Part shown: positions 4,619 through 22,355 of the stretch, piece after piece
How the letters are laid out: each line of letters begins with the position of its first letter
Numbering within the stretch: position 1 is the first letter of the stretch
IMG/VR virus record: IMGVR_UViG_3300011013_000092
Location: 1 to 24,439 of that record
DNA length: 24,439 nt
Strand: one strand, 5' to 3'
DNA from: a virus
Notes under the pieces: model-generated
Database searches by the model: none
What the model was told of the DNA's origin: nothing
Seen by the model: the letters and a program-made list of their open reading frames with translations, nothing else
Made by a program: the position numbers and the translations under genes

Positions 4619-6207
4619 TGTCGGTGAAACTAGATACAGCATTTGCTAGTTTATCAGAATTAAAGATTTGGTTTAGAGGTCAATCTGGTCAAACTTTAAC
4701 TCTCGCTGATATTAATGAACTGATTCCTCTTCGCTGGACCTTCTTTAAAAATAGTTGGGAATTCGTAAAAGAAGGCCTTATTGTTAAAGCGGATAAATAT
4801 GAATTCCCAGATATGTTAATTGATCAAATTGATAATTTGACCCGATACATAGAAAGAGCAAGAAATAGCACAAATAAGGCAATTAATCCTTTCGGGAGAA
4901 CTTCCATTCTAACGGATTATTATGCTGTCTGGGAAAATCTCGACATAACTTCTATCCCCATCACAAGACAAGAACAGAAGCTTATTGATGATAAGATTAA
5001 TACTATATCTCGATTTGTTAAAACAGATTTTGAGAGAATACGTGATGATATGGTTGTTGCTAGAGATGAGATAGCTGATACAGTTGGCCTATCTGATGAC
5101 AACTACAATCTAACACTAAATAGAAGCTCCGTTGCTCAACTTAGGAGTGCCAGGATATCTGATATTACTAATATGCAAACGTTACACACTGGAATAAAAG
5201 CTGTTGATTATATATTAGCTAATATTAGTTCGCTAGATACTGTAAATATTGACCCATTTGCTTTAGCTAGACAGAATGCAAATAATGCAGATGTTGAGAT
5301 TGGGGAAGGTAGATCTGGTCGCTTAGTTAAAATGAACCACGGTGATAGTCTACAAACCTTAGCAGCAAGATATTTTAATGATCCAGATAGATGGATTGAT
5401 ATTGCAATTGCTAATGGCTTGAAGCCACCATATATAGATGAGATTGGTGAAGCAGTTATTATTATCTCTAATGGTGACGGTAATCAGCTAAATATTTCTA
5501 ATGAAGATGCTGAGGGCGATAAAAACATAAACAAGTTTTATATCAATCAAGCTATATTCCTAAAATCGGACGCAACTACTGCTCCAGAGCAACGAACTAT
5601 TATCAATATTAAAGTTGTACCTATATCGGGTGAAATTGTATTGGAATTAAGCGGTGATACAGATTTAGATAGATACAAGGTATCTGATAATGCAATAATT
5701 AGAGTGTATAAGCAGAATACAATCAATTCTCAATTTTTGGTTCTTATTCCAAGTGAACAACCACTCCCACAGCAGAAAGTGGGAGTAGATCCATTTCTCC
5801 TAAATCGGCTAACTGATGACGAAAAGAACTCAGGTATTGATTTTGCTGTAAATGATGATATGGATATAGTATTCACATCAACTAACGATTTACAACTTAG
5901 TTTTGGTTTACCTAATGCACTTCAGGCTATTCAGTTCAAAATGATGACCGAAAAAGGTCAATTACCTAGGCATCCTGAGTATGGACTGCCACAAGTAGCG
6001 GGTATAAAAGTTACTGATCCAGCAGCGATAAAAGAGACACTCGCTAACGGTATAAATGATATGATTAGTGCAGATAGTAGATTTAGTAGAATAGAAACAC
6101 TGAATATTACAAGGCCAGAAGGCAACATATTTTTAATTAAGTTAAATGTGAGAATGACTGGGACCGGAACAGTGGTACCTATAAGCTTTAGTGTAAATAC
6201 AGGTTAA
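4618..6207 (+). CDS. Baseplate wedge protein: LysM-like domain joined to a gp25-like domain
   Basis: This 529-residue protein has three parts. Residues 1-200 are largely helical and unrecognised (WTFFKNSWEFVKEGL, LIDQIDNLTRYIERARNS). Residues about 232-285 look like a LysM or gp53-type module: HGDSLQTLAARYFNDPDRW, then IAIANGLKPPYID and AVIIIS. Residues about 405-527 match the gp25/GPW wedge family: a DDMDIVFTSTNDLQLSFGL strand pair, a helix ALQAIQFKMMTEKG, the RHPEYGLP signature, RFSRIETLNI and a final beta hairpin ending in PISFSVNTG. Known: gp25 nucleates the sheath and T4 gp53 is a LysM-bearing wedge protein; they are separate genes in T4. Here they appear in one chain. The LysM-like module is more likely structural than peptidoglycan binding. 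The TAATG overlap couples it to the gene before. Confidence 0.78.
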   Translation: MSVKLDTAFASLSELKIWFRGQSGQTLTLADINELIPLRWTFFKNSWEFVKEGLIVKADKYEFPDMLIDQIDNLTRYIERARNSTNKAINPFGRTSILTDYYAVWENLDITSIPITRQEQKLIDDKINTISRFVKTDFERIRDDMVVARDEIADTVGLSDDNYNLTLNRSSVAQLRSARISDITNMQTLHTGIKAVDYILANISSLDTVNIDPFALARQNANNADVEIGEGRSGRLVKMNHGDSLQTLAARYFNDPDRWIDIAIANGLKPPYIDEIGEAVIIISNGDGNQLNISNEDAEGDKNINKFYINQAIFLKSDATTAPEQRTIINIKVVPISGEIVLELSGDTDLDRYKVSDNAIIRVYKQNTINSQFLVLIPSEQPLPQQKVGVDPFLLNRLTDDEKNSGIDFAVNDDMDIVFTSTNDLQLSFGLPNALQAIQFKMMTEKGQLPRHPEYGLPQVAGIKVTDPAAIKETLANGINDMISADSRFSRIETLNITRPEGNIFLIKLNVRMTGTGTVVPISFSVNTG

Positions 6208-6212
6208 TAAAT

Positions 6213-9200
6213 ATGGCAGTAGAAATAAAGAGTTACAATCAAATACTTGGTGAAATGGTCCGTAAGATAATTGCGGATACCCCATTAAATGATGTAAATA
6301 CCGGCTCTACACTCTTAACATTACTTGAAGCAGCTGCTCAAGTAGACTTTGAGAATAATGCATCCATACTTAATGTGTTAGAATTATTGAGTATAGATGC
6401 TATCAGGAATAATGATCTAGATGCGAGAGCCGCCGATTTTGGTCTATCTAGAGTTCCAGCACAAAGAGCGACTGGTTTTGTTGATATAGGTGATAGCAGT
6501 ATCACAAAAAGAAGTACAGGCCTATATCAAGTAAAACCTGCCCCAATTGCTGGATCTACTCAGATATTTGTAAATAATACATCTGAGTGGGCAGCAACCG
6601 GTGAGCTATTTATAGGCAGGGGGACTGCTAACTTTGAGGGCCCAATAAGCTACACCTCGATAGTGAACAGCGGTTCTTTCTCCACAATCAATCTAGCATC
6701 TTCATTACAAAAAGATCATCTCATATCTGAAACAGTCATCGACGCACAAGGTACATCTAATCGCCTAATTTCAGCTGATACTCTCGTGCAGATTCCCGCT
6801 AATAATCTAAATCCTGCCATTGAATATAGAATAGTTAGAGACGCAGTGATTCCTTCCGGTGAAGATCTAGTAACAGGGGTTGAAGTTATAGCTATTATTG
6901 CCGGTACGTCAAATAATGCCGGTATAAACACTATTATTAAATTTAGTTCTGTACCTTTTACTAATGCCACTGTTACCAACACAACAGCCCTAACCAACGG
7001 TACCGATGTAGAAACAGATGATGCTCTGAGAGAAAGAGTTAAATCTTATTCTAATACATTAGCTCGTGGTACTGAATCAGCTATCTTAGCAGCAGTTATT
7101 GGTGTATCCGATCCGAGTGATGGTAAGCAGGTTGCTTCTGCTGTAATAACTGAGCCACCTAAAATAGGTGATCCATCTATATTATATTTAGATGATGGCG
7201 GTGGATTTGAACCATCTTTTGCTGGACAATCCGTAGACACATTACTAAATGAATCAAATGGCGGAGAAGAATTTTTACAATTAGCGAATTTCCCACTACC
7301 ACGACCACAGGTTGTTAATACTATTGATGGACCTTATGAACTAACGGATCAAATGGAACTTAGGGTATTAGTAGACGGTGTCGAAGAGGGAGTATTATTT
7401 ACAAATGATCAGTTTACTAATATAGCTGCAGCCACGTTGGCAGAAATAATAATAGCAATAAACGACCAATCTAATACCTTTAAGGCTACTTTCACAGATA
7501 ATTCTACAAGAATATTATTATTCCCATTAGATCATACAGCTGAAACTATTCAAGTTACACCTATCAAATCTACTGATAATGCTAATTTGTTTGCTAACAA
7601 TGTATTAAAATTTCCCTCTAATGAGTTTTCGTATATTAGGTTATATCAGAATAGCACATTGTTGACAGAAAAAGAAAGATCTGCCACACTATTAACAACC
7701 ACTTTTGCAACATGGAATATAACTACTGCAGGGAACTTAATAATTGGTGTAGATGATACTCCCCCACAGGATAGAGGATTTACTACATCTGACTTTAATG
7801 GTGTTCCTTTTGCAGCATTAACAATAGATGATTGGGTTACAGCTATAAATAAGAAATATGCTGGATTAACGGCAACTGCCGCATCTAGTGGTAGGGTGCA
7901 AATAACCTCTAATAAAGAGGGATCTGGATCCACATTAAGGGTTTTTGGTGGAACATATTTCGATAAATTATTCTCAAATCAAGATATAGAGTCTTCAGGT
8001 AAAAATTCTGATTTTGAATTAAATAGACAAAATGGCAATATTAGAATTTTAACTGATTTTACTGTAGGTGATTCTATTACTGCAGGTATTGAAGATGCTA
8101 AAGGGGCTATATTTTCTACCCCAACACCAACAGGTTCATATAATGTTGCAACTGATGCTAATGGTAGACCGGCTAGATTAGTAGTAATACCTGATTCAGA
8201 CGAGGTAACTATAAGAATAGGCGTTGGATTAGCTATTGGTAATATCATTACAGTCACCGATGAAGGTAATAATGTAATGAGACTAACCTCTGATTCAGCT
8301 GCCTCGTTTTCAGCTATTATCCCAAGAGATGTGTTATTTATAGCCGACCGAGGGGTAACTAGTTCTTGGATTGATTCAGCCAACACTGGTCTTTTTAAAG
8401 TTATATCAAAAGGTGAACATGTAGTACCTGGAACAGATACCTACATCGAAGTTAAAAATGTAGGTATAGTGCCCGGCGTACACACAGTAGAGGCATCTGA
8501 AGATATTCAAGCTTTTAAAACATTAGCGTACCCTCAGCTATGGAAAGGAACCTTTGTTTCTACTCCAGCTTCCGTACAGATACAAGAACTCGTAGATTCT
8601 TTTAATGATAATCTAATAAATACAAAATCTGCTGTTTTTAAAACAAACAGTATTAAATTAACAACGACAACAGAAGATGGTGGAACAATAGCAACTGCAG
8701 CAGGATCGGGTAATGCAATCGCATTATTTGATTTATTTAATGAGCAAACAGGGACGTTAGGGTTTATTGCTAGCCGCACATCTAATAAAGATTTCACGTC
8801 TTTCTTTAAGAGAACAGGGCCTACTTCAGTAGACGCTGAAGGTGTCGTTGGTAAATCAGTATGGTTAGATCGTGTGCAGTATACCGATATAAAGGGTAAC
8901 TTTACAGCTAATGCTACACCTGGCGAAGAGGGCGTAGATACATACAGTGAAGAATTAGAGTCCACAGGTATATTAGTTCCTGCTAACCTTCAATATTCTG
9001 ATACACTGAATTATTTAAGTGGATCTAACAAGGGGCATTATAGAAATATAAGAGACTATTTGGCTGGTGATAAAATCGGTACACAGCACGCTTTACCAAG
9101 AACCGTAATGGACATATCGCTAGCTGAACAATTTAATTTAATGGTATCTTCTGCCGTATCAGCTGAAGATAGTGTAGTTTTTATCTTAGATCAAGATCCT

Positions 9201-12200
9201 GTTGCTAAAACAATTGATGTTAAGATTTCTAGAACCGGTAAAATCAATAGTGACTTTCCAACAACTACATTCTCATTTTCCGCAGATGATGCAGATAATG
9301 AGCCAGGTATTACATTTGGAAACCTCCAAGTTTGGGGAAAAGATTCTAACAATACTGAGTTTCAAGACTATGCCGTATGGTTTAGAGCTAGAAACTGGTA
9401 TGTATCTGGTGGTGCTGGAAGTGGCGGTGGTGCTTTTATGGTTAGAGCTGAAGAGTTTGGCCCACACGGTGAAGCATATAGATTCCAAATTGAACACCCA
9501 GCTCTACCCAATGAAGCGAATGTTGTTGTTCATGATAATGATCCTGATTTTTCACTTGTAACATATAGATTTGGATCAAGTGGGCCTAAGCCCACTGGAA
9601 TAAGTGATGGGAATACTTTTACTGTTTCCGCACTCGGCGGTGATATGTTCCGCTATACATTTAACAACGCACCTGCTTTTGCAGCAGTTGCCGCCAACGA
9701 TGTATTAAGTATATTAGCAGGAAGCGGTGTCGCTGATGCTAATTCAGGGCAATTCAGTATCATAGCTGTAGATGATTTAACAAAAACAATAGATATATAT
9801 AACCCTAATGGTGTTACCTCAATACTCGGCAACCCAGAAGTTACAACAATAGACACAATTGATGATATTGTGGGATCTCAAACCGTTAGCACTGTATCTG
9901 GTATTTTAGCAGCAGCTGGATTAGATGGTAAGTTCTTTACTATCAACGATGCTGCAGGTTCTGTAGCCGTATACTACAATGTTGGTACACCTAATCCTGG
10001 AGCTGGTACACTCGGTGTTAATAGGGTACTAGAAGTAATACTAGGTGGCGGAGAAGCAGATAGTACAGTTGCTTCACTGACATCTGGGATACTCAGTGCA
10101 GACAGTGAATTCTCTAGTGTACCAGCTGGTACAACAGTTACTATAACCAATACCGATAATGGCACCTATGCTGTAGCAGCAGATGGATCAACAGCTACTG
10201 GCTTTATATTCTCAGGTACTCCAGGTGTAGCAGATGTCACAATTGACAATACTTACTTCATCCTACAAGATCAAAACGGTAGCGTGGCATTCTGGTACGA
10301 CCTTAGTGGTACGACTTCAGAACCACTACACGGCGCTGACAGGTCAATTGAGATACCGACTATAGTATTCGGCGACTCACAGAATACTATAGCAACTAAA
10401 ACAGCAGTCGTTATAGTAAGCGATCCACAGTTCACAACAGCAACTGCAATAGGTAATCAGATAACTGTAACAGATGTTACGAATGGTGCTCGTGTAGCAG
10501 CGTCAGCCGGAACAACAGGGTTTACAGTAAGCGAGAGTGTGGCCGGAGTAGACGATATAGTTGAAACTATAGGTGTTGCTAGCCTGTTAAATATTTTTTC
10601 ATTAACAGGTACCGGTGTAGCAGATATTGTTTCAAAGATATCAGAAAGCCCTTTACTTATATCGGCAGAAATTGACGCAACTAATGATATATTTAAAGCC
10701 ACTAGGGAAGAAGTATACACCCCAGCCGGCCCAACAGATTTTAGTGCATCTCTGTCGTTTGAGCATGATCCGAGTCCAATATCTGGAAACAATAAGTGGA
10801 TAAAACTATTTGATAGCATTAGTTGGGTAAAAGATTTTCAAAACCTAAATCCACACTTCGCATTAAAAAATGAACTTATATTACCCGGTGCTGCCCCATC
10901 TACCTATGTAATGGACACAACACCTAATGCAGACGGGACAACAGGTGAATACTTTAAATTAGTCCCAATAACATTAGATAATATACTCCACCACTTCACA
11001 CAAAAAGCGCTATCTCAGCTACCTATTGTGGCAGATGTTGAGATAGCAAATAATATACGTAGAATTCAAATTAAATCAAAGCTTCTTGGATCTCAAGGGG
11101 CCGTGGAAGTAATTGGTGGTAATGCCAATTATGTGGATTTTAGTATTTTTGGAGAAGGTCAAATAGCACCTGGATCTGAATCAGGTGGTGATTTTCTACA
11201 AGTAAAAACTAGAGCATTCCCTGTTACATTAACGAAAGGAATGCTAGTTAGTGTAGAAAACGATCAACCCGCTAAAAGGTTTTCTAGATTACAAGATAAC
11301 GATACGATAGATGTATTCAAGGGTACCGGTGATAATGCTGAATATCAATGGAATCCTAAAGACACTAAATTAAGTAGTTTAGTTAGAATGGATATAACGG
11401 ATGTATCTGCTGCATACGGTAGAGTACCGGGTATTGTATGGAGATGGGAGCACAATGATGGTGGTTCACTATATAACATAATAGATTCAACACTAGGTGT
11501 TGTTACAGCTCCACCTGATGATGAAGTTGCAGTAGGTGGAAGTGATGCCGCAAACTTACACATCGAGATTATTGAAGCAGGTGATGCACTAAATGCGCAA
11601 AACTTTAAATTAACTGTAAGCGGAGTACCAACTCAAGCAGATTACTTTACTTTTAGAAGTGCTTCAGGTGCTACTTTTGCATTATGGTTTGATGTTGACA
11701 ATAACAGCACTGCCCCAACTGGCTCAACATATATAGCCGCAACTAATCAAATAGAAGTAGATATATCATCTGGTGATTCTGAAGATCAAGTAGTATCTAA
11801 AATGGCTGCAGTATTAAATGTAAATGTGGCATTCTTAAGCGAATTCACTGGTACGCAGGAAGAAGGTGTAAACTTTGATGATGTTGTGGCTGGTGACCTA
11901 CTTAACGTATATGGGACCTTCTCATCAGCATGGAATGCTGGAAATAAAGGATTTGCTTCTGGTGATGCTAATATAGCTGGCTTCCCAATTATCAGCGTAG
12001 ACTCTGTTAATCGCAGGGTAGATGTCGTAAATCCTCGCGGTGTCGCTATGGGAGCAGAAACCATAGGTACTGGGACTATAGAAATAACACCAACACCTAT
12101 TGTAAAATGGAATTTAAGACATGCGGCTAAAACAAGTATAGTTCAAGCTGTCAAGGTAGGCACAGATGTAACATTGACTACTGTGAGTCAACACGGGCTA

Positions 12201-13709
12201 AGAGAGGGAGATAGCTTTACAATAGAAGACAACGGTTTAGCTCAGACTACTACAGTGGATACCGTAGTAAACACCTCTACGATAATTTTTACAGATATCA
12301 CTGGAAAACCAGATAATACATACTTGGATGGATCTATTGCTGATTCATCAAAAGTGTCGACTCGATATAAAATAGAATCAATAGGCTTTAATAATCTATA
12401 TAGACTTACCTGGGTTGAAGGTGAAGAGCCCCTATTTGTAGACTGTGGAGTTGCAGTAGATGATTTCATGTCTATACAGGGAGACACTTTTGGAAGCAGT
12501 AATTCTGGGGTATTTAGGGTATTAGGTGTAGATAATCGTGGGATAGTTTTCGAGAATGAGATAGCTAAAGAAGAATTAGATACTTATTTCCCTTTTAATA
12601 ATACTGGCATACTTGCTACTTGGGTTTCTAACTCAGACACAGTGACAGGTGTAGCAGGTACATTTAGCAATGTTGAAATAGGCGATTGGGTTAAAAAACC
12701 AGAAGATGCAGATGAAGAATATAGACAAGTTACAGGACTACTTGATGATAATGATGATCCTGTAACAGCTGATCTCGCTACACGAATAAAATTAGGTTCT
12801 AACTATGAAGGAACTACGTCTACAAGTATAGGTATAAGTTTTGATCAAAATAGTGATGTAGGTAAAGGTAAGATTCTACAAAATATAGACGATATCAGCT
12901 TCTTTGAAGGTGACTCGGTGCAAATAAGTGATAATATTTTTATAGACAATATCGTGGATAGTGGATGGTTTAGTTCAGTTAATTCTGGAACTTTCAGTGT
13001 CCTACAAGTAGGTACAGACGGAACCACACTTAGACCTTTTGTTAGAGTTAAAAATGCTGCAGGTCAATCACAGACCGGCGTAGATCTGGGAGTAGCTCCA
13101 CTTGGCTTTTTCATATTAGAGGGTCAAGAATATATATATAAGAGTATTCGACAAATCGAGCACACAGCTATAGATGACTTTAATCCAGATAGAAGATCTA
13201 TATACATGACACCTCCAACTAAGGTTGGTAAAATGTCTATATCGAACGGTACTAAAGTTATTCCTATAGGTAAACTAGGATACACCACTGATGTGACCAC
13301 TGGTATAGATGGTTACACTTATTACACCGGGCTACTTAGAACGGTGCAAAGAATAGTGGATGGGTTTGAACCTGAAGCAAGTAGTTTCCCAGGCAGAAGA
13401 GCTGTGGGTGGTGCAATAGAGATATTGCCTCCACTTATTAGAAGAGTTGAAGTGTCTATTGAAGTTACCACCAATGAGGGTGTTAACTTGAACGAAATCA
13501 GTAATGATATTAAAACAGCTATAATCGACTATGTAGGTGGTTTAGGTGTGGGTGAAGATGTAATCTTGTCCGAAATAACAGTAGCTGTTATGGATATTAC
13601 CGGCGTGGCAGCTGTAACATTTAATAGTCCACTACCTAGTACAGAAAGAATATCTATAGACGATAATGAAAAAGCTTTCATAGAGCCAGATGATATCGGT
13701 GTAGCATAA
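6213..13709 (+). CDS. Giant baseplate J-like wedge protein (gp6/gpJ family) with a large modular middle region
   Basis: At 2498 residues this is far longer than P2 gpJ (about 300) or T4 gp6 (about 660). Residues 1-300 are a typical baseplate J N-terminal half: helical start (GSTLLTLLEAAAQVDFE), DLDARAADFGLSRVPA, AGTSNNAG, then TNGTDVETDDALRERV and RGTESAILAAV. Residues about 2396-2498 match the J C-terminal half (GGAIEILPP, RRVEVSIEVTT, a helix, DITGVAAVTF). Between them lie about 2,100 residues of short beta-rich modules of recurring types. These include VDG/DF/IN modules (372-448, 490-587, 779-843, 1589-1650), a tandem pair with FWYDL-type motifs (1237-1448) and a third copy (1804-1889). 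NSG-F-VD modules lie near 705, 1160, 1892, 2081 and 2232. Only one Cys was noticed. It probably dimerises in the wedge and forms an extended outer baseplate. The upstream ribosome site is weak (AGGTTA); start ATG at 6213. Confidence 0.85.
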   Translation: MAVEIKSYNQILGEMVRKIIADTPLNDVNTGSTLLTLLEAAAQVDFENNASILNVLELLSIDAIRNNDLDARAADFGLSRVPAQRATGFVDIGDSSITKRSTGLYQVKPAPIAGSTQIFVNNTSEWAATGELFIGRGTANFEGPISYTSIVNSGSFSTINLASSLQKDHLISETVIDAQGTSNRLISADTLVQIPANNLNPAIEYRIVRDAVIPSGEDLVTGVEVIAIIAGTSNNAGINTIIKFSSVPFTNATVTNTTALTNGTDVETDDALRERVKSYSNTLARGTESAILAAVIGVSDPSDGKQVASAVITEPPKIGDPSILYLDDGGGFEPSFAGQSVDTLLNESNGGEEFLQLANFPLPRPQVVNTIDGPYELTDQMELRVLVDGVEEGVLFTNDQFTNIAAATLAEIIIAINDQSNTFKATFTDNSTRILLFPLDHTAETIQVTPIKSTDNANLFANNVLKFPSNEFSYIRLYQNSTLLTEKERSATLLTTTFATWNITTAGNLIIGVDDTPPQDRGFTTSDFNGVPFAALTIDDWVTAINKKYAGLTATAASSGRVQITSNKEGSGSTLRVFGGTYFDKLFSNQDIESSGKNSDFELNRQNGNIRILTDFTVGDSITAGIEDAKGAIFSTPTPTGSYNVATDANGRPARLVVIPDSDEVTIRIGVGLAIGNIITVTDEGNNVMRLTSDSAASFSAIIPRDVLFIADRGVTSSWIDSANTGLFKVISKGEHVVPGTDTYIEVKNVGIVPGVHTVEASEDIQAFKTLAYPQLWKGTFVSTPASVQIQELVDSFNDNLINTKSAVFKTNSIKLTTTTEDGGTIATAAGSGNAIALFDLFNEQTGTLGFIASRTSNKDFTSFFKRTGPTSVDAEGVVGKSVWLDRVQYTDIKGNFTANATPGEEGVDTYSEELESTGILVPANLQYSDTLNYLSGSNKGHYRNIRDYLAGDKIGTQHALPRTVMDISLAEQFNLMVSSAVSAEDSVVFILDQDPVAKTIDVKISRTGKINSDFPTTTFSFSADDADNEPGITFGNLQVWGKDSNNTEFQDYAVWFRARNWYVSGGAGSGGGAFMVRAEEFGPHGEAYRFQIEHPALPNEANVVVHDNDPDFSLVTYRFGSSGPKPTGISDGNTFTVSALGGDMFRYTFNNAPAFAAVAANDVLSILAGSGVADANSGQFSIIAVDDLTKTIDIYNPNGVTSILGNPEVTTIDTIDDIVGSQTVSTVSGILAAAGLDGKFFTINDAAGSVAVYYNVGTPNPGAGTLGVNRVLEVILGGGEADSTVASLTSGILSADSEFSSVPAGTTVTITNTDNGTYAVAADGSTATGFIFSGTPGVADVTIDNTYFILQDQNGSVAFWYDLSGTTSEPLHGADRSIEIPTIVFGDSQNTIATKTAVVIVSDPQFTTATAIGNQITVTDVTNGARVAASAGTTGFTVSESVAGVDDIVETIGVASLLNIFSLTGTGVADIVSKISESPLLISAEIDATNDIFKATREEVYTPAGPTDFSASLSFEHDPSPISGNNKWIKLFDSISWVKDFQNLNPHFALKNELILPGAAPSTYVMDTTPNADGTTGEYFKLVPITLDNILHHFTQKALSQLPIVADVEIANNIRRIQIKSKLLGSQGAVEVIGGNANYVDFSIFGEGQIAPGSESGGDFLQVKTRAFPVTLTKGMLVSVENDQPAKRFSRLQDNDTIDVFKGTGDNAEYQWNPKDTKLSSLVRMDITDVSAAYGRVPGIVWRWEHNDGGSLYNIIDSTLGVVTAPPDDEVAVGGSDAANLHIEIIEAGDALNAQNFKLTVSGVPTQADYFTFRSASGATFALWFDVDNNSTAPTGSTYIAATNQIEVDISSGDSEDQVVSKMAAVLNVNVAFLSEFTGTQEEGVNFDDVVAGDLLNVYGTFSSAWNAGNKGFASGDANIAGFPIISVDSVNRRVDVVNPRGVAMGAETIGTGTIEITPTPIVKWNLRHAAKTSIVQAVKVGTDVTLTTVSQHGLREGDSFTIEDNGLAQTTTVDTVVNTSTIIFTDITGKPDNTYLDGSIADSSKVSTRYKIESIGFNNLYRLTWVEGEEPLFVDCGVAVDDFMSIQGDTFGSSNSGVFRVLGVDNRGIVFENEIAKEELDTYFPFNNTGILATWVSNSDTVTGVAGTFSNVEIGDWVKKPEDADEEYRQVTGLLDDNDDPVTADLATRIKLGSNYEGTTSTSIGISFDQNSDVGKGKILQNIDDISFFEGDSVQISDNIFIDNIVDSGWFSSVNSGTFSVLQVGTDGTTLRPFVRVKNAAGQSQTGVDLGVAPLGFFILEGQEYIYKSIRQIEHTAIDDFNPDRRSIYMTPPTKVGKMSISNGTKVIPIGKLGYTTDVTTGIDGYTYYTGLLRTVQRIVDGFEPEASSFPGRRAVGGAIEILPPLIRRVEVSIEVTTNEGVNLNEISNDIKTAIIDYVGGLGVGEDVILSEITVAVMDITGVAAVTFNSPLPSTERISIDDNEKAFIEPDDIGVA
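9921..10556 (+). repeat. Tandem pair of about 105-residue beta modules inside the J-like gene
   Basis: Residues about 1237-1345 and 1346-1448 of the J-like protein read as two consecutive copies of one module. Each begins with a strand and an aromatic motif (GKFFTINDAAGSVAVYYNV; NTYFILQDQNGSVAFWYDL). An acidic loop follows, then a helix, then TVTITN or QITVTD with a Gly-Ala turn, then TGF. Similar copies lie at residues 1804-1889 of this protein and 858-966 of the fibre. Identity is low and the comparison was made by eye. Confidence 0.6.
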
Positions 13710-13716
13710 GGGTAAC

Positions 13717-16248
13717 ATGGCAGAGAATAAAACAAAAGTAGATCGCATACATGATCAGATGCCACGCTATTTTAGAACGCGTGTAAACCCTAATTGGAAA
13801 GCTTTAATTGAGAGTATGGGGGAGTCTGATCAGACACTTTCTGATCTAGTCGAAGAAGTAAAAAAACAATTCTTTATGAAGACTGCAGAGAGACCATATA
13901 TAGATAAACTGGGAGCTAATTTTAAGGTATCTAGACCTAAATTCATAGGTATGGATGACGCAACCTTCCGCAATTATATTCCTGTTTTAGCGTATCAACC
14001 AAAACAAGTTAAGCTGGTATTAGATTTACTACTAGATATATTCTTTTTTAAAGAGTCTACGACATCTTTTACGCAATCTGAGGGTTTCAGCCCATATGAT
14101 CTAAGAGATAAATGGAAAATAGAATACACTATAGATGGTGTTAAAAAGGAAAGTATAGTTTTCGAATCCGATGATTTTACCGATATCACTATGGCTACAG
14201 CGGAAGAGGTGGCAGCGGTTATAAATAGAAAAGCACTATATAGCTTTGCTATTGTATTTGATGATAGAATACAGAAACGTAAATTTATTCGTATATTTAC
14301 TAACACTATTGGCTCTAAAGGATCTGTGCAAGTGACAGGTGGTAGAGCAAACCTAGAGTTTAGATTTATTGGTTTTAATAATGATTCTGGTGCGGGTACT
14401 AATACGACTTGGAATATAACTAAGATCGGTGAAACAGTTACATTTGAGCACACGGGTGGAACTTCACCTGGCTTAGATAGGGTATTAGCTGGTGATATCG
14501 CTATTATAAACATACCCGACAATGAAGGATCATTTGAGATAACGAAAGTAAATGTTGGAACTGGGACATTTGAGTTTGTCAACCTGTTTGGTACGCCGGG
14601 ATCTTTTGATCACTCATCTGATCCAGATTCTGCAGTAAATTTTATGACTGCAGATAAGGCAGTTATATATACTAATAATAATCGTGCAGTAGTTTGGGAA
14701 GTATCACCTGGTGAAATAATTGTTGAGATACCAGCTTCACCTCCAGTAGTAAAACGCAACCTGTCTGGTAGCGCACATATTAATGGTATTGTTGACACAA
14801 TAGTAAATAGAGTTAGCGCAACAGAATTAGAATTGAACAATGTAGAAGAGTGGCCTCTCGCAGGTGGGCAATTTGTAATTCAAAAAGAAGATGAAATCGC
14901 TACTAGAATTCTAACTGATACTGAGGATGAGCAGGTATCCTACTTATTGAATACGCGTTTTGATAAAAAACAGATATATAATTACACAGCAAAAGTTGGT
15001 AATAATTTGACCGGTGTTACACCAGATCTGCCAATTATAGCTAATATATTTGAACACGATATAGTATCCGCTGAACGGCAGACTGGCTTTGATGTATTAG
15101 TTACGACTACAGCTCCCCATGGATTTCTAGAAGGAGAAGCTGTTAGAATTCAAAATACACAATCACCACTAATTACTAAAAGCTTGCGAGTAGACATACT
15201 ACTTGCAGACACTGATATCAATGTCGTTAATAAAATGGCTGCAAGAATTGGAGCTGAAGCTGACTTTAACACTACTAGTCTCGGCAATATCATAGAGATA
15301 ACTAACTCGAATATTGGCCCTACAACAGATGTCACAGACATAGATAGCGGTGTATCAATAGCAGTAATACAGCAAGGCACTATTGCGCTCCCTGAAATAA
15401 CTCAAATAGGGGTTTCCAATGGGGCATCATATGATGTAGCTGGTGACGCTGAGCGATTTGAGATAAGTAGTGCAAATGATATTACTAGGTACCATGTGTG
15501 GTTCAATGTCTTAGATGGTATAAATTATCCACAAACAAACCCAGGACTAGACGATAGTGGTATAGATGGTACCTTCATAATTTCTGAAATAGTATCACCA
15601 ACACAGTTTAAATATATCTCTCCAGGCGAGTTTGGGACTAAAACAGGTGGTTTAGCTAGAGTAGAAAGAATTGAAATGTCAAATTCTGGATCACTAGCAT
15701 ACCTAACTAGTGCACAATTAGATACAGGCCTATTAGGCCCTAATATATGGGATGCTAATGCTGCTTTTGTACTATCATCGCTTACCACAAGTACCGCTGA
15801 TGAAATAAAAGCAGGTAATAATGTTCGCACACTTAATATAAATCCTATAAACAATATACCGAACGAGGAAGGTTTTGTTATTTTTGGGTTTGGTACAGAG
15901 AATGAAGAAGGCCCTGTAAGATATTTATTCAAGCCCACTCCATCCTCTATGCAAATTGATCCAGCATACGTTTTTAAAAACAATCATGATGTAGGCGATA
16001 CTATCACAGTTATTAGAAGAAAAGGCGCACACGTTATAAGTAGCACGGGCAAAGAATATGCCCCATATATAACTGATCCATCTATAGCTAGAGAGGTATT
16101 ACAGGAGTTATTGAGGCAAGTTAAGTCTGTAGGTATATTTATTGAATTTCTAGTAAGATTCCCTGAGCAACTTTATGCTACCCTCGATGTCTATCGCAGT
16201 GATGTAGATAATCTATGGCCAGTAAATCAGAGTGATACTACAGAATAA
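13717..16248 (+). CDS. Baseplate wedge protein, gpI / Tail_P2_I-like, enlarged by beta modules
   Basis: This 843-residue protein follows the J-like gene after a seven-base gap, the usual order of J then I in contractile tails. Residues 1-115 are gpI-like: DQMPRYFRTRVNPNWKALIE, a helical stretch, AERPYIDKLGANFKVSRPK, then DDATFRNYIPVLAYQ. P2 gpI is under 200 residues, so most of the length is added. Residues about 128-222 are a VDG/DF/IN module (YTIDGVKKE, DDFTDITMATAEEVAAVIN, GSKGSVQVTGGRANLEF). Residues 258-295 are an NSG-F-type module. Residues 453-485 have a HGF-L-EGEAV-I motif. Residues 485-620 hold two half copies of the FWYD-type module in swapped order (INVVNKMAARIG with IIEITNSN first, RYHVWFNVL later). 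The C-terminal 70 residues return to a helical domain (AREVLQELLRQVKSVGIFI). Likely a wedge arm connecting inner baseplate to fibres. Confidence 0.72.
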   Translation: MAENKTKVDRIHDQMPRYFRTRVNPNWKALIESMGESDQTLSDLVEEVKKQFFMKTAERPYIDKLGANFKVSRPKFIGMDDATFRNYIPVLAYQPKQVKLVLDLLLDIFFFKESTTSFTQSEGFSPYDLRDKWKIEYTIDGVKKESIVFESDDFTDITMATAEEVAAVINRKALYSFAIVFDDRIQKRKFIRIFTNTIGSKGSVQVTGGRANLEFRFIGFNNDSGAGTNTTWNITKIGETVTFEHTGGTSPGLDRVLAGDIAIINIPDNEGSFEITKVNVGTGTFEFVNLFGTPGSFDHSSDPDSAVNFMTADKAVIYTNNNRAVVWEVSPGEIIVEIPASPPVVKRNLSGSAHINGIVDTIVNRVSATELELNNVEEWPLAGGQFVIQKEDEIATRILTDTEDEQVSYLLNTRFDKKQIYNYTAKVGNNLTGVTPDLPIIANIFEHDIVSAERQTGFDVLVTTTAPHGFLEGEAVRIQNTQSPLITKSLRVDILLADTDINVVNKMAARIGAEADFNTTSLGNIIEITNSNIGPTTDVTDIDSGVSIAVIQQGTIALPEITQIGVSNGASYDVAGDAERFEISSANDITRYHVWFNVLDGINYPQTNPGLDDSGIDGTFIISEIVSPTQFKYISPGEFGTKTGGLARVERIEMSNSGSLAYLTSAQLDTGLLGPNIWDANAAFVLSSLTTSTADEIKAGNNVRTLNINPINNIPNEEGFVIFGFGTENEEGPVRYLFKPTPSSMQIDPAYVFKNNHDVGDTITVIRRKGAHVISSTGKEYAPYITDPSIAREVLQELLRQVKSVGIFIEFLVRFPEQLYATLDVYRSDVDNLWPVNQSDTTE

Positions 16249-16274
16249 TAACAGTAAATTAGCAGTGTACGCGG

Positions 16275-16281
16275 TATAATT
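16275..16281 (+). promoter_or_regulatory. TATAATT box, candidate phage promoter
   Basis: TATAATT followed by TAAAAG lies about 200 bases before the fibre ATG, 27 bases after the upstream stop. No TTGACA-like -35 hexamer is visible. It is the second of three gap copies of this heptamer. If used, the fibre transcript would have a leader of roughly 180-190 bases. Confidence 0.4.
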
Positions 16282-16440
16282 TAAAAGTAATTAAAGTGAA
16301 GACAGCTTTTGTCAGTAAAATGTAAAGATTTCCAATTATATCACTTAGATTATTCGATTGGGTTTCTTAAAAAACACTTGTAATCTGGGTTTATAAAAGG
16401 TGTTAGTTGGAAGAATTACAACAACTTACGATACCCACGG

Positions 16441-16458
16441 GTTTAAGATAATTTAAAC
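16441..16458 (+). repeat. Small inverted repeat just upstream of the fibre ribosome binding site
   Basis: GTTTAA (16441-16446) and TTAAAC (16453-16458) are perfect inverted repeats six bases apart. The ribosome site AAAGGA (16459-16464) follows at once and the ATG is at 16473. The hairpin would be weak because it is AT-rich; a protein operator or a chance repeat is equally possible. Confidence 0.25.
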
Positions 16459-16472
16459 AAAGGATCTAAATT

Positions 16473-19400
16473 ATGGCCGTATTAGGTCGTTTATTACTAG
16501 GATCAGCTGAGCGATTAGATCTTCCCGATCTTCTCTCAATAGATTCATTCACATCTGCTGATTTTAAGTATTTAATTCAGAGCTTTGTTGGTGGTGATAA
16601 GTCTTATATTTTAAAAGGGTTTGAAGTAATTCAACCACAGGATTCTATTGGTACAGAGAGTGTATCAATACGTGTAGCTGATTCTGTAGCTTATTTTCCA
16701 GGATCTGGAGCTGGTTCTTTCTATTATGGTCTTCCAGAAGGTACGACTGGAACCGAGGCTTTAGTTCCAGAATTAAGAAAAAATGCAATAAACTATGTTT
16801 ACTTAACTCTTACTACATTTGATTCAGCTCGTGATAGTAGAGCTTTTTGGGATCCAGACCAAAATGGTGGAGACGGTGGCGAATTTAGCCAAGATGTAAA
16901 CACAGAATCAACTCTATCCGTGGAAGTAAATGTATCTGTATCCACATTTCCTGAAAATGTAATCCCCGTAGCTAAGATTAAGGTTGGCGCATCAGTAATC
17001 GAGTCAATACAAGACTGTAGAGATATGATGTTCAGATTAGGGGCTGGCGGAGTTAATCCAGATCCTTTTTCTAGCTTTGATTTTAGAGATGATCCAGATT
17101 CAAATTACTCTAGAAATGAACCATCTACTACAATGACATCGCCCCTTAATCCAAATCCTTTTGAGGGCGGAGATAAGAACATATTCACTCTAAGAGAGTG
17201 GATGAGTGTAGTTATGACCAGAATAAAAGAACTTTCTGGTGACACGTATTGGTACTCACAAGAGAGTTTAGGTGATTCTGGCCCTAATATCGGCAACGTA
17301 TGGCGCGATACTTTAGGTTCTTCTCTTATGTCTAAAGGGACATTCTCTCACGACGAACTAATAGGTGGTCGAATTATATGGGATGAAAATATCCGATATA
17401 GCAATCTAACCGATCCTAGATGCGTAATTATTAGACCATCCACTATAGATATTCCTAATGAAAATGTAGCTTACATTGAACTAGTTAGAGATACCGAATT
17501 AAACACCACAAGTACTGCTGTAACCTGGCTTAATGGTTCAAATATCGTAGAAGGTGTTGTTGGATCTTTCGACAATCTAACAAAAGGTGATTGGATTAAG
17601 AAAAAATCCGATGCATATTATTTATACCTACGTGCTGAAGAGTTTTACGCACTACCTGGTTTAGCAGGTGGTACTACCTCTCCAGCGCTAGCACAGTCAG
17701 TAAAATTAAATGCGATATATGCTGGTACCTCTAGTGCAGAAATCGGTGATTACACTAAAGGGGAATATTTACAAACCGATATAAAAGTTGCAAATAAGGC
17801 AGATCCCACTAACAATGAGTTTGGTGGTAACTTTTATTGGTTAGGGCATCGAGCCGATGTACTATTAGGTTTAGAGGGCATAACGCCTACCCAGCTAAGT
17901 ATAGATATCACTCAAGCAGACGGTGTTAAAGCAAGAGTTACTTCTGTAGGTCATGCTCTTATAGATCAGGACCGCATAACGATAACAACCGGTGGATACG
18001 CAGGGACATTCCAAGTAGAAGTAGAAGATACAGATAACTTTTTCATATATACAACTGTTACAGGTGATGAATTAGCTCAAACTGCTTTCTATGCTATCGT
18101 TGAATCTAGAGCTGTGTCTACCGACCATAGTTTCCAATTAGAAAGCGCAAATCATACCGCTAAAGCTAACCAGCGTGTGTATATTGAAAATACTAGTTCC
18201 CTATACGATGGTTCTTATTTAGTTAACCCTAGAACAGATACTACCTTCCAAATTGCATATGATGCATTAACTCCAGATCCTGGACCACTTGATACTGAAA
18301 ACGTTAGAGTAATTAAGGTAAATGTAAAGACTGAATTTGGTGTTGTTAAAATTATCCAAGGCGAATCGATAGACATCGGTGACGCTGATACACAGAATAT
18401 ATTGTCATACATCGGAATGGACTCGCTGTCGCAAACAGTACCGATATATAACACACCTAATGATTATAATGCGCTCGATGGTCATCAAAGCTGGAACTGC
18501 GATGATGACGATGATCTTACAACTAGAGCATCTAAATTAACAGCGATGATGGCTGATAGAGTACAAGAGCGTGGATTTAATTTCCGCGGTCGTGTAAATA
18601 TAACATCAGTCACCAATGGGTTAGATCAGGATATATCAGCAAATGGAACTCTTACCTTACATAAACCGAGTAGTCCTGAGCAAATAATAGATTTAACTGT
18701 CAGTCTTCCGGCGAATAGTGTAGCTATTGCAAACATAGACCGAGATGGAAATGCGGGTATTTCTCTAACAGTTGAGAGTATCGGTAATGCATCAATTCTT
18801 GGTGAAAACAAAATAATAATGTTTTATCGCTTCGGCGATACAACGGTATATACCTGGGAAGACCATTCAATAGTTCCTTCCGGTCATTACAATACTGAAT
18901 TACCCGAAGATTCTTCCAATAGAAACATAACTGTATTTAATCCTGGACAGTTAAAACTAGATCCACCATCTGGTTTATTAGATTTAATAGTAGACGAGGG
19001 TACAGAAGTAACTCGTGTAACTACCAGTAGTGGTGCTGCGACACCGCAATCAAGCTGGTACACATTAAATGCCGCATTAGATACCACAGAATACTATGTA
19101 TGGTACGACATAGATAGTGGTGGTACTGACCCAGCAATAGCCGGTAAGACTGCTATCACGGTTGCTATTTCAGTAGCTGACTCTGCCGACGATGTAGCTT
19201 TAGCCACAGAGACAGCAATAAACCTTATTGCGGCCACCGATGTTGTAGCATCAAGGGTTGGTGCTGCCGTAACAATCACTAACTTACTTGTCGGTGAAAC
19301 TACTGACAGCCTAGATACTGGATCAACTGGTTTTGACATAGATATACTATGTAATGGTAATGACCCAGATATAGAATTAGTAATACCTGGATCTACAAAT

Positions 19401-22355
19401 AAGAATATTATTGATGTTGACGTTATCAATGCACTCGGCACTCTTGTTATATCTAGCGGAGCTGCTGCATGGGTTAGAGTAAACCGCTATGCATTAAAGA
19501 CTTTCAATACTATCCAGACCACAGATTTACCTGACACAGATGTAAATGGTTCTATCTATATAACAAGTATAGAAGATATCCCAGTAGATCAAGATGTGTT
19601 CGTGCTATGGACAAGACTCGATGATAGCATGATTGAATCGCATAAGGCCGATCACCCTGATGGAAATATCTATGAAGAATTCCTAGATGTTGTTGCTGGT
19701 GTTCCTACAAATCCATATGAAATAACAGGGCCTGTGCCTTCAGGTACAGAAATACAACTTCCTCCAGATAGTAGGGATGACGACAGAATACAAGAGTATA
19801 TAGTTGGCTCTGGTCAACTTAAGGTATCTTTAAGAGGACAATTATTGAGACCAGGTGTCGACTGGGAAGAAGTTGGTCTTGCTGGATGTCTATCATCTAG
19901 GATTAATATCCTACAAGAATTAGTAATATCTGATTATATTTCATGGAGAATAGATTCTCAAGGGGCAGTGTATTTTGCCTCTGATGGTGCTTCGCCTGTA
20001 TCTTTACAAGATGCATATGATGGTGGGCGCTTTATAAATGTTGTCACCGGTCAACCAATTGTTGTTACTGGAGCATCAGGTAAACTAATGTCAATACAGG
20101 GTGACCTTGATGTTACCGGTGTTATCGATCCAAAGGGTATAACATTTGATCTTCAAGGTGGTACACCCTTCATATCACAAAGTGGTATATGGTTTAATAC
20201 ATTAGATGAAATGGTTATAGAGGCTGTAGCAGCCAATGCAGCCATAACAACTAAGCAAGGCAACTTGATATTAAAAAGTTTTAGCGGAACAGTTGAAACA
20301 GCTGCCATATTAAAACTAGGTAACTACCTAGACATGAACGGGCAATTGTTAACTGACCTAACCGGGCCAGTCACACTAGGTGTCGACCTAACACTTAATG
20401 ATAACATGCTATTAGGTGGAACCGGCGACATAACACTAGGCGACAATATAAATGTAAACGGTAAGCACCTAGTTGATGATACCACACTTCTGTTCCACAC
20501 ATCTGGTAGCAATAGTTTGTTCGCCGGCCTTAATGCTGGTAATTTAGCACCATCTGGTGCTAACAATACCGGTATTGGTGAAAATGCGCTTACCAATCTG
20601 TCCACAGGAAGTAATAATGTAGCACTGGGTTATAATGCACTGAATGATGTCACCATAGGTAGCGGTAATATTGCATCAGGTTCATCAGCTATGAGTTCGC
20701 TCGCTAGTGGTGATAACAACAGTGCATTTGGGTTTCAGGCCCTAATGGCAGCAGATGCAGTATCACAGAATACTGCTGTAGGTAAAGATTCACTAATAGT
20801 ATTAGCCACAGGGGCAGCGAATACCTCTATAGGTTATCAATCATTGCTCTCTGAAACATCGGGATCTAACAATGTGGCGTTAGGTGCTAACACGCTAGAT
20901 AGCCAAGATGGATCTAGTAATAATACTGCTTTAGGTTATGGTGCAGGTGGATCAATAACAACTGGCCAAAACTCTGTATTCCTTGGATCTGGAGCTGATA
21001 CAACTAGTCTACTAGCCGACAACCAGATTGCTATAGGTTATGGTGCTATAGTAGATGCCGCTAATAAATTACGCATGGGTAATGATAGCCTAACAACTAT
21101 CGAGTTCGCTCCAAACTCAGTTATGCAGGTGCAAACAGGTACGCTTGATATAACTTCCCCAGGCAATCTAGGTATTAGTACACTAGCAGCTATGAGTTTA
21201 ACTGCAGATAACAGTAGCATTAATTTAGACACTGCTATAGTGGATATTGTGGCTGATACAAGTAGTATAGGTTTAACTTCAACAACTGCAGATATAACTA
21301 CGCCAACTAGTAGCATATCTCTGGCTCCAGCTTCAATAAGCCTAAGTGCTTCACTTACAACTATAGATATGTTAGCTGCCAGTTTAACTATAACCAGTAC
21401 ACTCATATCACTAGTTGGCCCAATTACAACCAGTTCTACGTTGTCACTTGGGGGCATCATAGACATGAATTCTAATCGCATAACTGAAGTAGCTGCTCCA
21501 ACAGCAGTAACTGATGCGGCTAGACAGCAGGAAGTTGACGATCTCGAAACTACCATAAACAATGAATTCTTAAGATTAGATGGTACCAATCCTATGGAAG
21601 CCGATCTAGCCATGGGAACACATAAAATAACAGGTTTAACTGCTCCAATGGCGGCAACCGATGCGGCTCGAAAACAAGAAGTAGACGATTTAGAATCATC
21701 TATAAACAATGAATTCTTAAGATTAGACGGCACTAACCCTATGGAGGCTGATTTGGCCATGGGGACACATAAAATAACAGGTTTAACTGACCCAACTGCA
21801 GCACAAGATGCATCTACCATGGCCTATACAGATCTACATCTAAAACTAGATGGCTCTGTTGCCATGACTGGTGATTTAGATCTAGACGGAGCATACAGGG
21901 TAATAAATGCACTTGATCCTGTATTCCCGCAAGACCTAGTTACAAAAGCTTTTGTTGAAAGCGCAGATACATTAAAAGCAACATATGTAAAGTTATATAA
22001 TGATACAGGTGCAACTCTATTAGCGGGTGATATTGTTTCAGTTAGTACTGTAGCCGGTCAATGTATTTTAGCTGATGCTACCACGAGGGCCACATCTGAA
22101 GGTACTGTGGGGATAGTTATCGCGAACGCGCTAAACGCCACGACAGCTATAGTACAGGTCGCTGGTGAGAGTATAGTTGATGTCAATGTAGCAGTTTCCC
22201 TAAGCGTGGGTAAAAGAGCATACCTAAGTACAACAGCTGGGGCTATTGATAAAGATGCCCCAATTGCTTCAGGTACTGCTGTATTCGTTTTAGGCGTGGC
22301 TACTCAAGCAAATAGAGTTATAATCCAACCATCATTAGCGTATATTAATGAATAA
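16473..22355 (+). CDS. Very large tail fibre protein with YadA-like head repeats
   Basis: This 1960-residue protein is the main host-contact candidate. Residues 1-260 look like a baseplate-attachment domain (RLDLPDLLSIDSFTSADF, YILKGFEVIQP, IPVAKIKVG, IQDCRDMMFRLGAGG, LREWMSVVMTRIKEL). Residues 345-600 hold small beta modules, including GDWIKK and GHALIDQDRITITTGG motifs. Residues 858-966 are a YVWYDI-type module. Residues about 1085-1150 hold the RGQLLRPG module found again as the separate 92-residue gene. Residues about 1346-1536 are YadA-like repeats (GSNNVALGYNAL type). Residues about 1580-1650 are a Ser/Thr/Ile-rich fibrous stretch. Residues 1670-1767 are two 49-residue shaft units plus a diverged third. 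The last 110 residues form a small beta tip domain (GTVGIVIANAL, VGKRAYLSTTAG). No peptidase S74 chaperone domain is seen. The ribosome site is AAAGGA, eight bases before the ATG. Confidence 0.82.
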   Translation: MAVLGRLLLGSAERLDLPDLLSIDSFTSADFKYLIQSFVGGDKSYILKGFEVIQPQDSIGTESVSIRVADSVAYFPGSGAGSFYYGLPEGTTGTEALVPELRKNAINYVYLTLTTFDSARDSRAFWDPDQNGGDGGEFSQDVNTESTLSVEVNVSVSTFPENVIPVAKIKVGASVIESIQDCRDMMFRLGAGGVNPDPFSSFDFRDDPDSNYSRNEPSTTMTSPLNPNPFEGGDKNIFTLREWMSVVMTRIKELSGDTYWYSQESLGDSGPNIGNVWRDTLGSSLMSKGTFSHDELIGGRIIWDENIRYSNLTDPRCVIIRPSTIDIPNENVAYIELVRDTELNTTSTAVTWLNGSNIVEGVVGSFDNLTKGDWIKKKSDAYYLYLRAEEFYALPGLAGGTTSPALAQSVKLNAIYAGTSSAEIGDYTKGEYLQTDIKVANKADPTNNEFGGNFYWLGHRADVLLGLEGITPTQLSIDITQADGVKARVTSVGHALIDQDRITITTGGYAGTFQVEVEDTDNFFIYTTVTGDELAQTAFYAIVESRAVSTDHSFQLESANHTAKANQRVYIENTSSLYDGSYLVNPRTDTTFQIAYDALTPDPGPLDTENVRVIKVNVKTEFGVVKIIQGESIDIGDADTQNILSYIGMDSLSQTVPIYNTPNDYNALDGHQSWNCDDDDDLTTRASKLTAMMADRVQERGFNFRGRVNITSVTNGLDQDISANGTLTLHKPSSPEQIIDLTVSLPANSVAIANIDRDGNAGISLTVESIGNASILGENKIIMFYRFGDTTVYTWEDHSIVPSGHYNTELPEDSSNRNITVFNPGQLKLDPPSGLLDLIVDEGTEVTRVTTSSGAATPQSSWYTLNAALDTTEYYVWYDIDSGGTDPAIAGKTAITVAISVADSADDVALATETAINLIAATDVVASRVGAAVTITNLLVGETTDSLDTGSTGFDIDILCNGNDPDIELVIPGSTNKNIIDVDVINALGTLVISSGAAAWVRVNRYALKTFNTIQTTDLPDTDVNGSIYITSIEDIPVDQDVFVLWTRLDDSMIESHKADHPDGNIYEEFLDVVAGVPTNPYEITGPVPSGTEIQLPPDSRDDDRIQEYIVGSGQLKVSLRGQLLRPGVDWEEVGLAGCLSSRINILQELVISDYISWRIDSQGAVYFASDGASPVSLQDAYDGGRFINVVTGQPIVVTGASGKLMSIQGDLDVTGVIDPKGITFDLQGGTPFISQSGIWFNTLDEMVIEAVAANAAITTKQGNLILKSFSGTVETAAILKLGNYLDMNGQLLTDLTGPVTLGVDLTLNDNMLLGGTGDITLGDNINVNGKHLVDDTTLLFHTSGSNSLFAGLNAGNLAPSGANNTGIGENALTNLSTGSNNVALGYNALNDVTIGSGNIASGSSAMSSLASGDNNSAFGFQALMAADAVSQNTAVGKDSLIVLATGAANTSIGYQSLLSETSGSNNVALGANTLDSQDGSSNNTALGYGAGGSITTGQNSVFLGSGADTTSLLADNQIAIGYGAIVDAANKLRMGNDSLTTIEFAPNSVMQVQTGTLDITSPGNLGISTLAAMSLTADNSSINLDTAIVDIVADTSSIGLTSTTADITTPTSSISLAPASISLSASLTTIDMLAASLTITSTLISLVGPITTSSTLSLGGIIDMNSNRITEVAAPTAVTDAARQQEVDDLETTINNEFLRLDGTNPMEADLAMGTHKITGLTAPMAATDAARKQEVDDLESSINNEFLRLDGTNPMEADLAMGTHKITGLTDPTAAQDASTMAYTDLHLKLDGSVAMTGDLDLDGAYRVINALDPVFPQDLVTKAFVESADTLKATYVKLYNDTGATLLAGDIVSVSTVAGQCILADATTRATSEGTVGIVIANALNATTAIVQVAGESIVDVNVAVSLSVGKRAYLSTTAGAIDKDAPIASGTAVFVLGVATQANRVIIQPSLAYINE
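20509..21080 (+). repeat. YadA-like left-handed beta-roll repeats in the fibre
   Basis: Residues about 1346-1536 of the fibre contain roughly a dozen degenerate units of about 14 residues with the pattern GxNNxAxGxxAL or close variants: NNTGIGENAL, NNVALGYNAL, NNSAFGFQAL, QNTAVGKDSL, ANTSIGYQSL, NNVALGANTL, NNTALGYGAG and QNSVFLGSGA. This is the head-repeat pattern of trimeric autotransporter adhesins, also common in phage fibres. It implies a trimeric fibre head that may bind the cell surface. Confidence 0.8.
21480..21773 (+). repeat. Two tandem 147-bp (49-residue) shaft repeats
   Basis: Unit 1 spans 21480-21626 and unit 2 spans 21627-21773, exactly in frame; a diverged third begins at 21774. 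Each unit reads as a turn (IT-x-x-x-xP), a short helix (DAARxQEVDDLE) and a segment containing RLDGTNPMEADLAMGTHK. Twenty-nine residues are identical between the copies. LDG-NPM-A-DL and DA-x-x-QEVDDL patterns are known in phage fibre shafts next to coiled coils. Confidence 0.85.

Follow-up and report, generated by a model that had tools for sequence, protein, structure and literature searches.

Beta-rich modules shared by two baseplate wedge proteins and a fibre of a contractile-tailed phage suggest an old paralogy overlaid by younger insertions

Background

TssF and TssG of the type VI secretion system (T6SS), and gp6 and gp7 of phage T4, are related pairs of proteins that form 2:1 heterotrimers (PMC6300606). 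Enlargement of such proteins is known as such: gpI orthologues start at 242 amino acids (aa), and T4 gp7 reaches 1032 aa, the upper end of their range (PMC10457771). In phage Milano, globular domains of the wedge attach the receptor-binding proteins (PMC10811340). At the periphery of the T4 baseplate, the sequential genes of gp10, gp11 and gp12 share one ancestral fold, with subdomains acquired or lost (PMC3004832). Domain mosaicism is also common in the receptor-binding and tail proteins of phages, with domains shared between functional classes that include the baseplate (Smug et al. 2023, PMC10684548). Here, we analysed a stretch of viral DNA of 24,439 bases (hereafter the window), which is the complete IMG/VR record IMGVR_UViG_3300011013_000092, and describe beta-rich modules that recur in the products of three adjacent genes: a J-like baseplate wedge protein (J), a gpI-like wedge protein (gpI, or I in residue ranges) and a fibre (F).

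The sharing appears to have two layers, an old paralogy of J and gpI and a younger insertion of modules on top of it, and we consider this account as a whole to be probable.

Identity of the three proteins

The region holds the baseplate-wedge and fibre genes of a contractile-tailed phage. All positions given below are those of the window and all features lie on the + strand. J (6213-13709, 2498 aa) is followed directly by gpI (13717-16248, 843 aa) and then by the fibre (16473-22355, 1960 aa). J matched the Pfam family Baseplate_J (PF04865) at residues 176-286 with an E-value of 7e-12 and 45.6 bits, against a cut-off of 21.1, as well as PHROG_6 (baseplate wedge, E 8e-29) and, at residues 2375-2485, PHROG_1608 (E 9e-7). 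Within the core domain of J (residues 181-368; 6753-7316), residues 187-301 matched by sequence residues 95-206 of the 348-aa J protein ORF62 (PDB 9euf_C, E 6e-13). The C-terminal core (residues 2310-2498; 13140-13706) is conserved in 14 of the 14 aligned relatives, and the last 100 positions of the whole-J family profile matched residues 385-485 of the 487-aa gp88 (PDB 9zd7, E 1e-4); when only the C-terminal 230 aa of J went into the profile, no match to the PDB was obtained at E 0.01. Core matches thus stand at both ends of the protein, and therefore some 1,900 residues, occupied by an array of modules, separate the two parts of the core.

The N-terminal helical core of gpI (residues 1-96; 13717-14004) includes a stretch, residues 11-94, which matched the solved gpI of phi92 (gp146, 209 aa) with an E-value of 7e-4. 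Helices are predicted at residues 2-110, and gpI also matched PHROG_1160 (baseplate, E 6e-7). The fibre has a conserved N-terminal domain (residues 1-330; 16473-17462), found at the same place in about 47 contigs with 51-74% conservation, followed by a variable distal part with PHROG tail-spike and structural matches.

Modules shared across the three proteins

A first-pass annotation, made from the letters of the window alone, had claimed that at least five beta-rich module types (VDG, FWYD, NSG, HGL and TW) recur across J, gpI and the fibre. All five were recovered in matches between proteins when slices of 100 aa were compared all against all with HHalign, using 11-member family profiles where relatives exist and, as controls that keep composition, shuffled columns and reversed sequence. 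Real matches lay far above both controls: off-diagonal scores of at least 35 numbered 80, against none in shuffled and none in reversed sequence, and scores of at least 30 numbered 120, against one and none. With thin profiles, the counts at a score of 30 were 66 real and one in each control. No HHalign score above 27 was obtained with P0004, the fibre-like product of the next gene (583 aa), a beta-rich protein included as negative control.

The strongest match between proteins linked the TW modules (TW-GDW-KK) of J (residues 2123-2223; 12579-12881) and of the fibre (residues 332-437; 17466-17783), with an HHalign score of 103 for F336-425 and J2121-2207, and a BLASTP match within the window of 36% identity for F332-434 and J2117-2223 (E 6e-11). 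The VDG family counts three modules in J (residues 369-432, 495-582 and 1560-1640; 7317-7508, 7695-7958 and 10890-11132) and one in gpI (residues 118-212; 14068-14352). Its top HHalign match between proteins joined I121-173 to J369-420 with a score of 78, and BLASTP linked I126-183 to J374-429 (E 1e-5). The second module of J matched I124-210 with a score of 49; the third had a BLASTP match between I171-219 and J1597-1647 (E 2e-3) and an HHalign score of 41. A weaker VDG-like stretch of J (residues 786-846; 8568-8750) matched I158-225 with a score of 32 and J534-594 with a score of 30.

Three FWYD modules were located in J (a, residues 1230-1325; b, 1337-1440; c, 1798-1880; at 9900-10187, 10221-10532 and 11604-11852), one in gpI (residues 484-611; 15166-15549) and one in the fibre (residues 848-962; 19014-19358). 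In the tandem pair of J, module a matched J1340-1427 with a score of 106; between proteins, the top matches were those of I492-561 with J1382-1452, in module b (54), and of F859-921 with J1808-1873, in module c (33). The end that the first-pass annotation had set for the shared region, 19370, falls just past the fibre copy. The HGL family is formed by one module in J (residues 1972-2046; 12126-12350) and a module in gpI that is divided into two halves (residues 446-483 and 612-642; 15052-15165 and 15550-15642), with a top score of 42 for I428-482 and J1952-2008.

NSG modules recur along J. The first (residues 660-765; 8190-8507) matched J1124-1219 (58) and I249-316 (34), and the second (residues 1112-1205; 9546-9827) matched J2060-2120 (54) and, as the top match of the family between proteins, I219-279 (39, with J1123-1187). 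A fourth (residues 2050-2122; 12360-12578) matched J1143-1202 (54) and I230-294 (36). Two stretches correspond to the second half of the module, at residues 1885-1946 (11865-12050; score of 50 with J1153-1202) and 2234-2285 (12912-13067; 38 with J700-749). The gpI copy lies at residues 219-294 (14371-14598), with a predicted local distance difference test score (pLDDT) of about 90. Besides these five families, two further elements are shared by J and gpI: the N-terminal core (residues 1-82 of J; 6213-6458), where the slices aligned I29-75 with J36-82, and the EGP module (J105-180, 6525-6752; I690-768, 15784-16020), where I716-764 and J127-176 matched with a score of 34.

Given the abundance of S, T, D and G in these proteins and the modest height of some HHalign scores, one might suspect plain chance or convergence of low-complexity beta sequence. 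This explanation is highly improbable in view of the 80 real matches against none in the controls at a score of 35, and of module edges that coincide with the edges of insertions and deletions in relatives; it is refuted for VDG, FWYD and TW, and least firmly for HGL and NSG.

Similarity between J and gpI

Like TssF and TssG, J and gpI resemble each other, here in two separate HHalign matches. The first aligns their N-termini, I22-96 with J29-108 (score 47, E 2e-6, where the best of 30 shuffles reached 19.6), and the second, I115-222 with J363-472 (E 5e-15), spans the first VDG module. The order of EGP differs between the two proteins. Because their N-terminal cores match, together with the shared VDG and EGP modules, J and gpI look like paralogues from a common ancestor.

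Both modules keep the same positions in J and in gpI of almost all relatives, including Myxococcus phage Mx1. VDG occupies its three sites in J and one in gpI in nearly every relative examined, and the exceptions are mostly truncated or interrupted genes. EGP is present in J of every relative examined and, among those with a gpI readable to its end, usually in gpI as well. When 73 VDG copies were placed in a tree, the four positions required three changes, which is the minimum possible. The clades are thus specific to position, and these copies therefore predate the whole phage family. As judged from this tree and these positions, the sharing of VDG and EGP does not reflect recent traffic between neighbouring genes. 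The first-pass annotation had proposed domain shuffling among neighbouring genes. This holds insofar as homologous modules are found on both sides of gene borders and come and go whole; most of the sharing falls outside it, given that VDG and EGP are old.

Gain and loss of modules in relatives

The younger layer was seen in relatives, 45-75% identical, in which exactly one module is missing. The J of L006, 75% identical overall, lacks residues 1971-2044, that is, the HGL module. That of L013 lacks residues 1751-1885, which correspond to the third FWYD module and a linker; across relatives this gap starts at residue 1747 or 1751 and ends at 1875 or 1885. L014 and L015 have neither FWYD c nor HGL nor TW in J. 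The FWYD, TW, HGL and GIP-type modules are lineage-specific. Alignments of L014 and L015 showed a 'WQSG..VRY ... NNG.F' stretch in J as well as in gpI, which may be a further shared module restricted to this lineage.

The FWYD copy of gpI (residues 484-611) is absent in six gpI relatives (L008, L009, L010, L035, L014 and L015). It sits within the HGL module, whose halves flank it on both sides: a hidden Markov model spanning the insert matches both halves, and the HGL module is uninterrupted in the relatives that lack the insert. Against a profile made only from fibre FWYD copies, the insert scored 20.4 bits in its native order and 44.9 bits when rotated, then covering nearly the full profile. 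By this rotation test, the insert is a circularly permuted FWYD domain nested in a loop of the HGL module. The tandem FWYD pair of J was weighed as its possible origin; the insert is closer to the fibre type, and the tree leaves its source unsettled. An alignment of FWYD copies contained no segment with enough conservation to serve as a search query.

The same loop was compared across 46 gpI proteins. It is short in most of them; four have the permuted FWYD there, and five others (L013, L057, L060, L063 and L070) have an unrelated 65-aa domain (GIP-type). With two unrelated inserts, this loop is an insertion hot spot of gpI. A second gpI site, near residue 427, also acquires a module. In L062, gpI has an extra HGL module that shares 42 of 74 aligned residues with the resident one (score 218, against 50-55 with the J copies), and by this similarity copying within a gene is shown once. 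The gpI of L076 likewise has an extra HGL module.

It could be argued that everything J and gpI share descends plainly from their duplication, with nothing shuffled, as the N-terminal core, VDG and EGP are common to almost all relatives. We regard this as very unlikely: lineage-restricted modules, insertions and deletions of module size, nested and permuted insertions, and a TW module shared with the fibre all speak against it, and it is already refuted for FWYD, TW and HGL.

Histories of the TW and FWYD modules

A scan for TW recovered 53 loci. In about 47 contigs, one partial frame excepted, the module begins near residue 330 of the fibre, just behind the conserved N-terminal domain. In the tree, the TW copies of J form one clade and those of the fibre another (98/100), so a single transfer suffices. 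TW is absent from distant J proteins and present in the fibre of the distant relative L030; because of this, and of its near-constant position in the fibre, the data favour a transfer from the fibre to J. FWYD copies group by position as well, requiring five changes where the minimum is four.

These trees bear on the possibility of ongoing exchange, through gene conversion or shuffling, among the three neighbouring genes. In its favour are the presence of modules in all three genes, the intragenic duplication in gpI of L062 with the extra module of L076, and the mutual match of the TW copies of J and F. In addition, a tblastn search with TW of J and FWYD of F, based on single sequences and thus insensitive, found nothing at E 1e-3 in a collection of 50,697 phage records. 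Yet the copies cluster by position and not by genome (VDG with three changes for a minimum of three, FWYD with five for four, TW with one clade each), and therefore the modules are not being exchanged between neighbouring genes on an ongoing basis. We deem such exchange improbable. Apart from a 147-nt repeat of the fibre, the direct repeats detected in the DNA of the three genes were short (25-38 nt, 61-80%), and hence no recent DNA copy connects these genes.

A more credible competitor, though still unlikely, is that each gene took up its modules on its own from the large stock of domains in surface proteins of phages and bacteria, so that their sharing reflects a common source. VDG is weakly similar to the IN motif of flagellin and FliD, and HGL to E1_FCCH; the gpI loop of other phages accommodates the unrelated GIP-type domain; and the J of L036 bears a Kelch beta-propeller inserted in the array at residues 721-951 (Kelch_4, E 4e-17). 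On the other hand, the insensitive tblastn search described above detected no relative of TW or FWYD.

Structure models

AlphaFold models of residues 1100-2299 of J and of gpI reached mean pLDDT values of 57 and 60, respectively. The most confident part is the VDG-NSG pair of gpI (residues 120-310), mostly at about 80-90. Its VDG module is predicted as b-b-b-a-b-b-b, with pLDDT mostly 80-90 and down to about 60 at residues 181-200. Matching order of strands and helices is what the models offer for a common fold among module copies, which they may share. The gpI model resembled FliD D2-D3 in a Foldseek search (prob 0.97, E 0.007). The Pfam family Flagellin_IN matched the VDG module at J495-582 with an E-value of 0.006 and 17.1 bits, below the gathering threshold of 22.7, and E1_FCCH matched HGL in gpI of L062 with 17.5 bits, below its threshold of 29.5.

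Some points weigh against the two-layer account. The sharing of HGL and NSG is statistically weaker than that of the other families: single hits have HHalign probabilities of 61-66%, and the case leans partly on the controls. The fibre-to-J direction proposed for TW depends on the absence of the module from distant J proteins, where it may have been lost. Several inner branches of the J tree do not resolve, so that gains and losses are not exactly countable. Finally, AlphaFold confidence is low overall, and even the best PDB match that Foldseek returned for the model of J residues 1100-2299 was unreliable (E 0.002, prob 0.06).

Neighbouring genes and relatives

The record is probably itself a fragment, with genes running off both ends. 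In order, it carries the last part of a tail gene, then genes for hub and spike-like proteins, for a protein with LysM and gpW-like parts, for J, gpI, the fibre and a 92-aa protein, and the start of another fibre-like gene. The gpW-like protein before J matched PHROG_975 (baseplate, E 8e-19); in its gene (4618-6207), a LysM-like middle part, with only weak PHROG matches at residues 237-301, is joined to a gp25-like C-terminus. Within the fibre gene, two tandem copies of 147 nt, 80% identical, lie at 21480-21773, in a repeated 'ITGL..P' segment of the fibre tip. The 92-aa protein (22392-22670) and residues 1115-1159 of the fibre (19815-19949) have in common a 45-residue 'LRGQLLRPG.D' module (BLASTP E 6e-5).

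A profile of the J N-terminus found 31 relatives in viral contigs and one in a genome contig assigned to an Elusimicrobia metagenome-assembled genome (MAG); a search for related loci with gpI returned zero relatives. The longer contigs among the relatives measure about 150-180 kb. Matching gene order was found in L003 and L006, whose J is 75% identical, and in Mx1, where gpI carries the annotation 'kelch repeat protein'. Mx1 is the sole relative in the annotated phage collection, and its J and gpI contain VDG, EGP and HGL-type modules. On the Elusimicrobia MAG contig (L037, 9977-11308), the J frame stops at residue 443, probably through a frame change.

Proposed model

We propose that J and gpI are the two wedge proteins expected to assemble as a J2-I heterotrimer, like T4 gp6 and gp7 and T6SS TssF and TssG, and that both owe their large size to small beta-rich modules lodged between parts of the core. 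The older layer would be the descent of J and gpI from a common ancestor, an arrangement that, VDG and EGP modules included, was set before the family diversified. The younger layer would consist of FWYD, TW, HGL and GIP-type modules that entered at linkers and surface loops, in some cases within another module and in one case with circularly permuted order, and that come and go whole; TW would have passed from the fibre to J. Such insertions may be tolerated because a compact domain with close ends can enter a loop and leave the core undisturbed.

At the periphery of the wedge, the arrays might act as extended arms by which fibres are held or positioned and perhaps the cell surface is bound. 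Because the globular domains of the Milano wedge attach receptor-binding proteins, the arrays of J and gpI may likewise extend the wedge and help to hold fibres; direct binding of the host surface by the arrays is possible. The modular outer baseplate put forward in the first-pass annotation is plausible. More tentatively, and with somewhat less than even confidence, the HGL loop of gpI, as well as a linker of J, may be a standing insertion site for compact domains in native or permuted form, which would make the wedge, and not the fibre tip alone, a replaceable display platform. The two unrelated inserts at one loop and the empty sites in relatives are consistent with this.

Baseplate wedges are usually seen as a conserved core that bears variable receptor-binding proteins; here, the wedge proteins themselves bear variable modules. 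Close relatives provide views before and after single module insertions, including that of a permuted domain inside another domain, so that a step of protein evolution which can rarely be observed becomes directly testable. Annotators should also be aware that matches among J, gpI and fibres of such phages may stem from shared modules and not from shared function.

Comparison with known systems

The locus resembles the wedge heterotrimers of T4, (gp6)2-gp7, the T6SS, (TssF)2-TssG, Milano, (BW2)2-BW3, and XM1, (gp16)2-gp17, in the adjacency of the J and gpI genes, in N- and C-terminal core sequences that match solved J proteins, and in the relatedness of the J and gpI N-termini. It differs from them in size, owing to the module arrays: the solved J proteins that were matched have 348-495 aa, whereas complete J proteins here have mostly 1759-2516 aa (2498 in the window), and the solved gpI proteins have 209-285 aa against 843 aa. 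To FliD D2-D3 and Flagellin_IN the likeness lies in the weak sequence match of the J VDG module and in the Foldseek match of the gpI model; these matches are below curated thresholds, neither implying a role in filaments nor supporting a claim of membership.

Like T4 gp10, gp11 and gp12, the genes described here are sequential baseplate genes with shared ancestry. The T4 proteins are related as wholes and at the level of fold only, whereas J, gpI and the fibre share module families that can be recognised in sequence, nested and permuted. The mosaicism surveyed by Smug et al. spans phages, whereas here the events are resolved by position within one phage family, and in wedge proteins instead of receptor-binding tips. 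The size of the arrays, their nesting and the permuted insertion set this case apart from known fold sharing and mosaicism.

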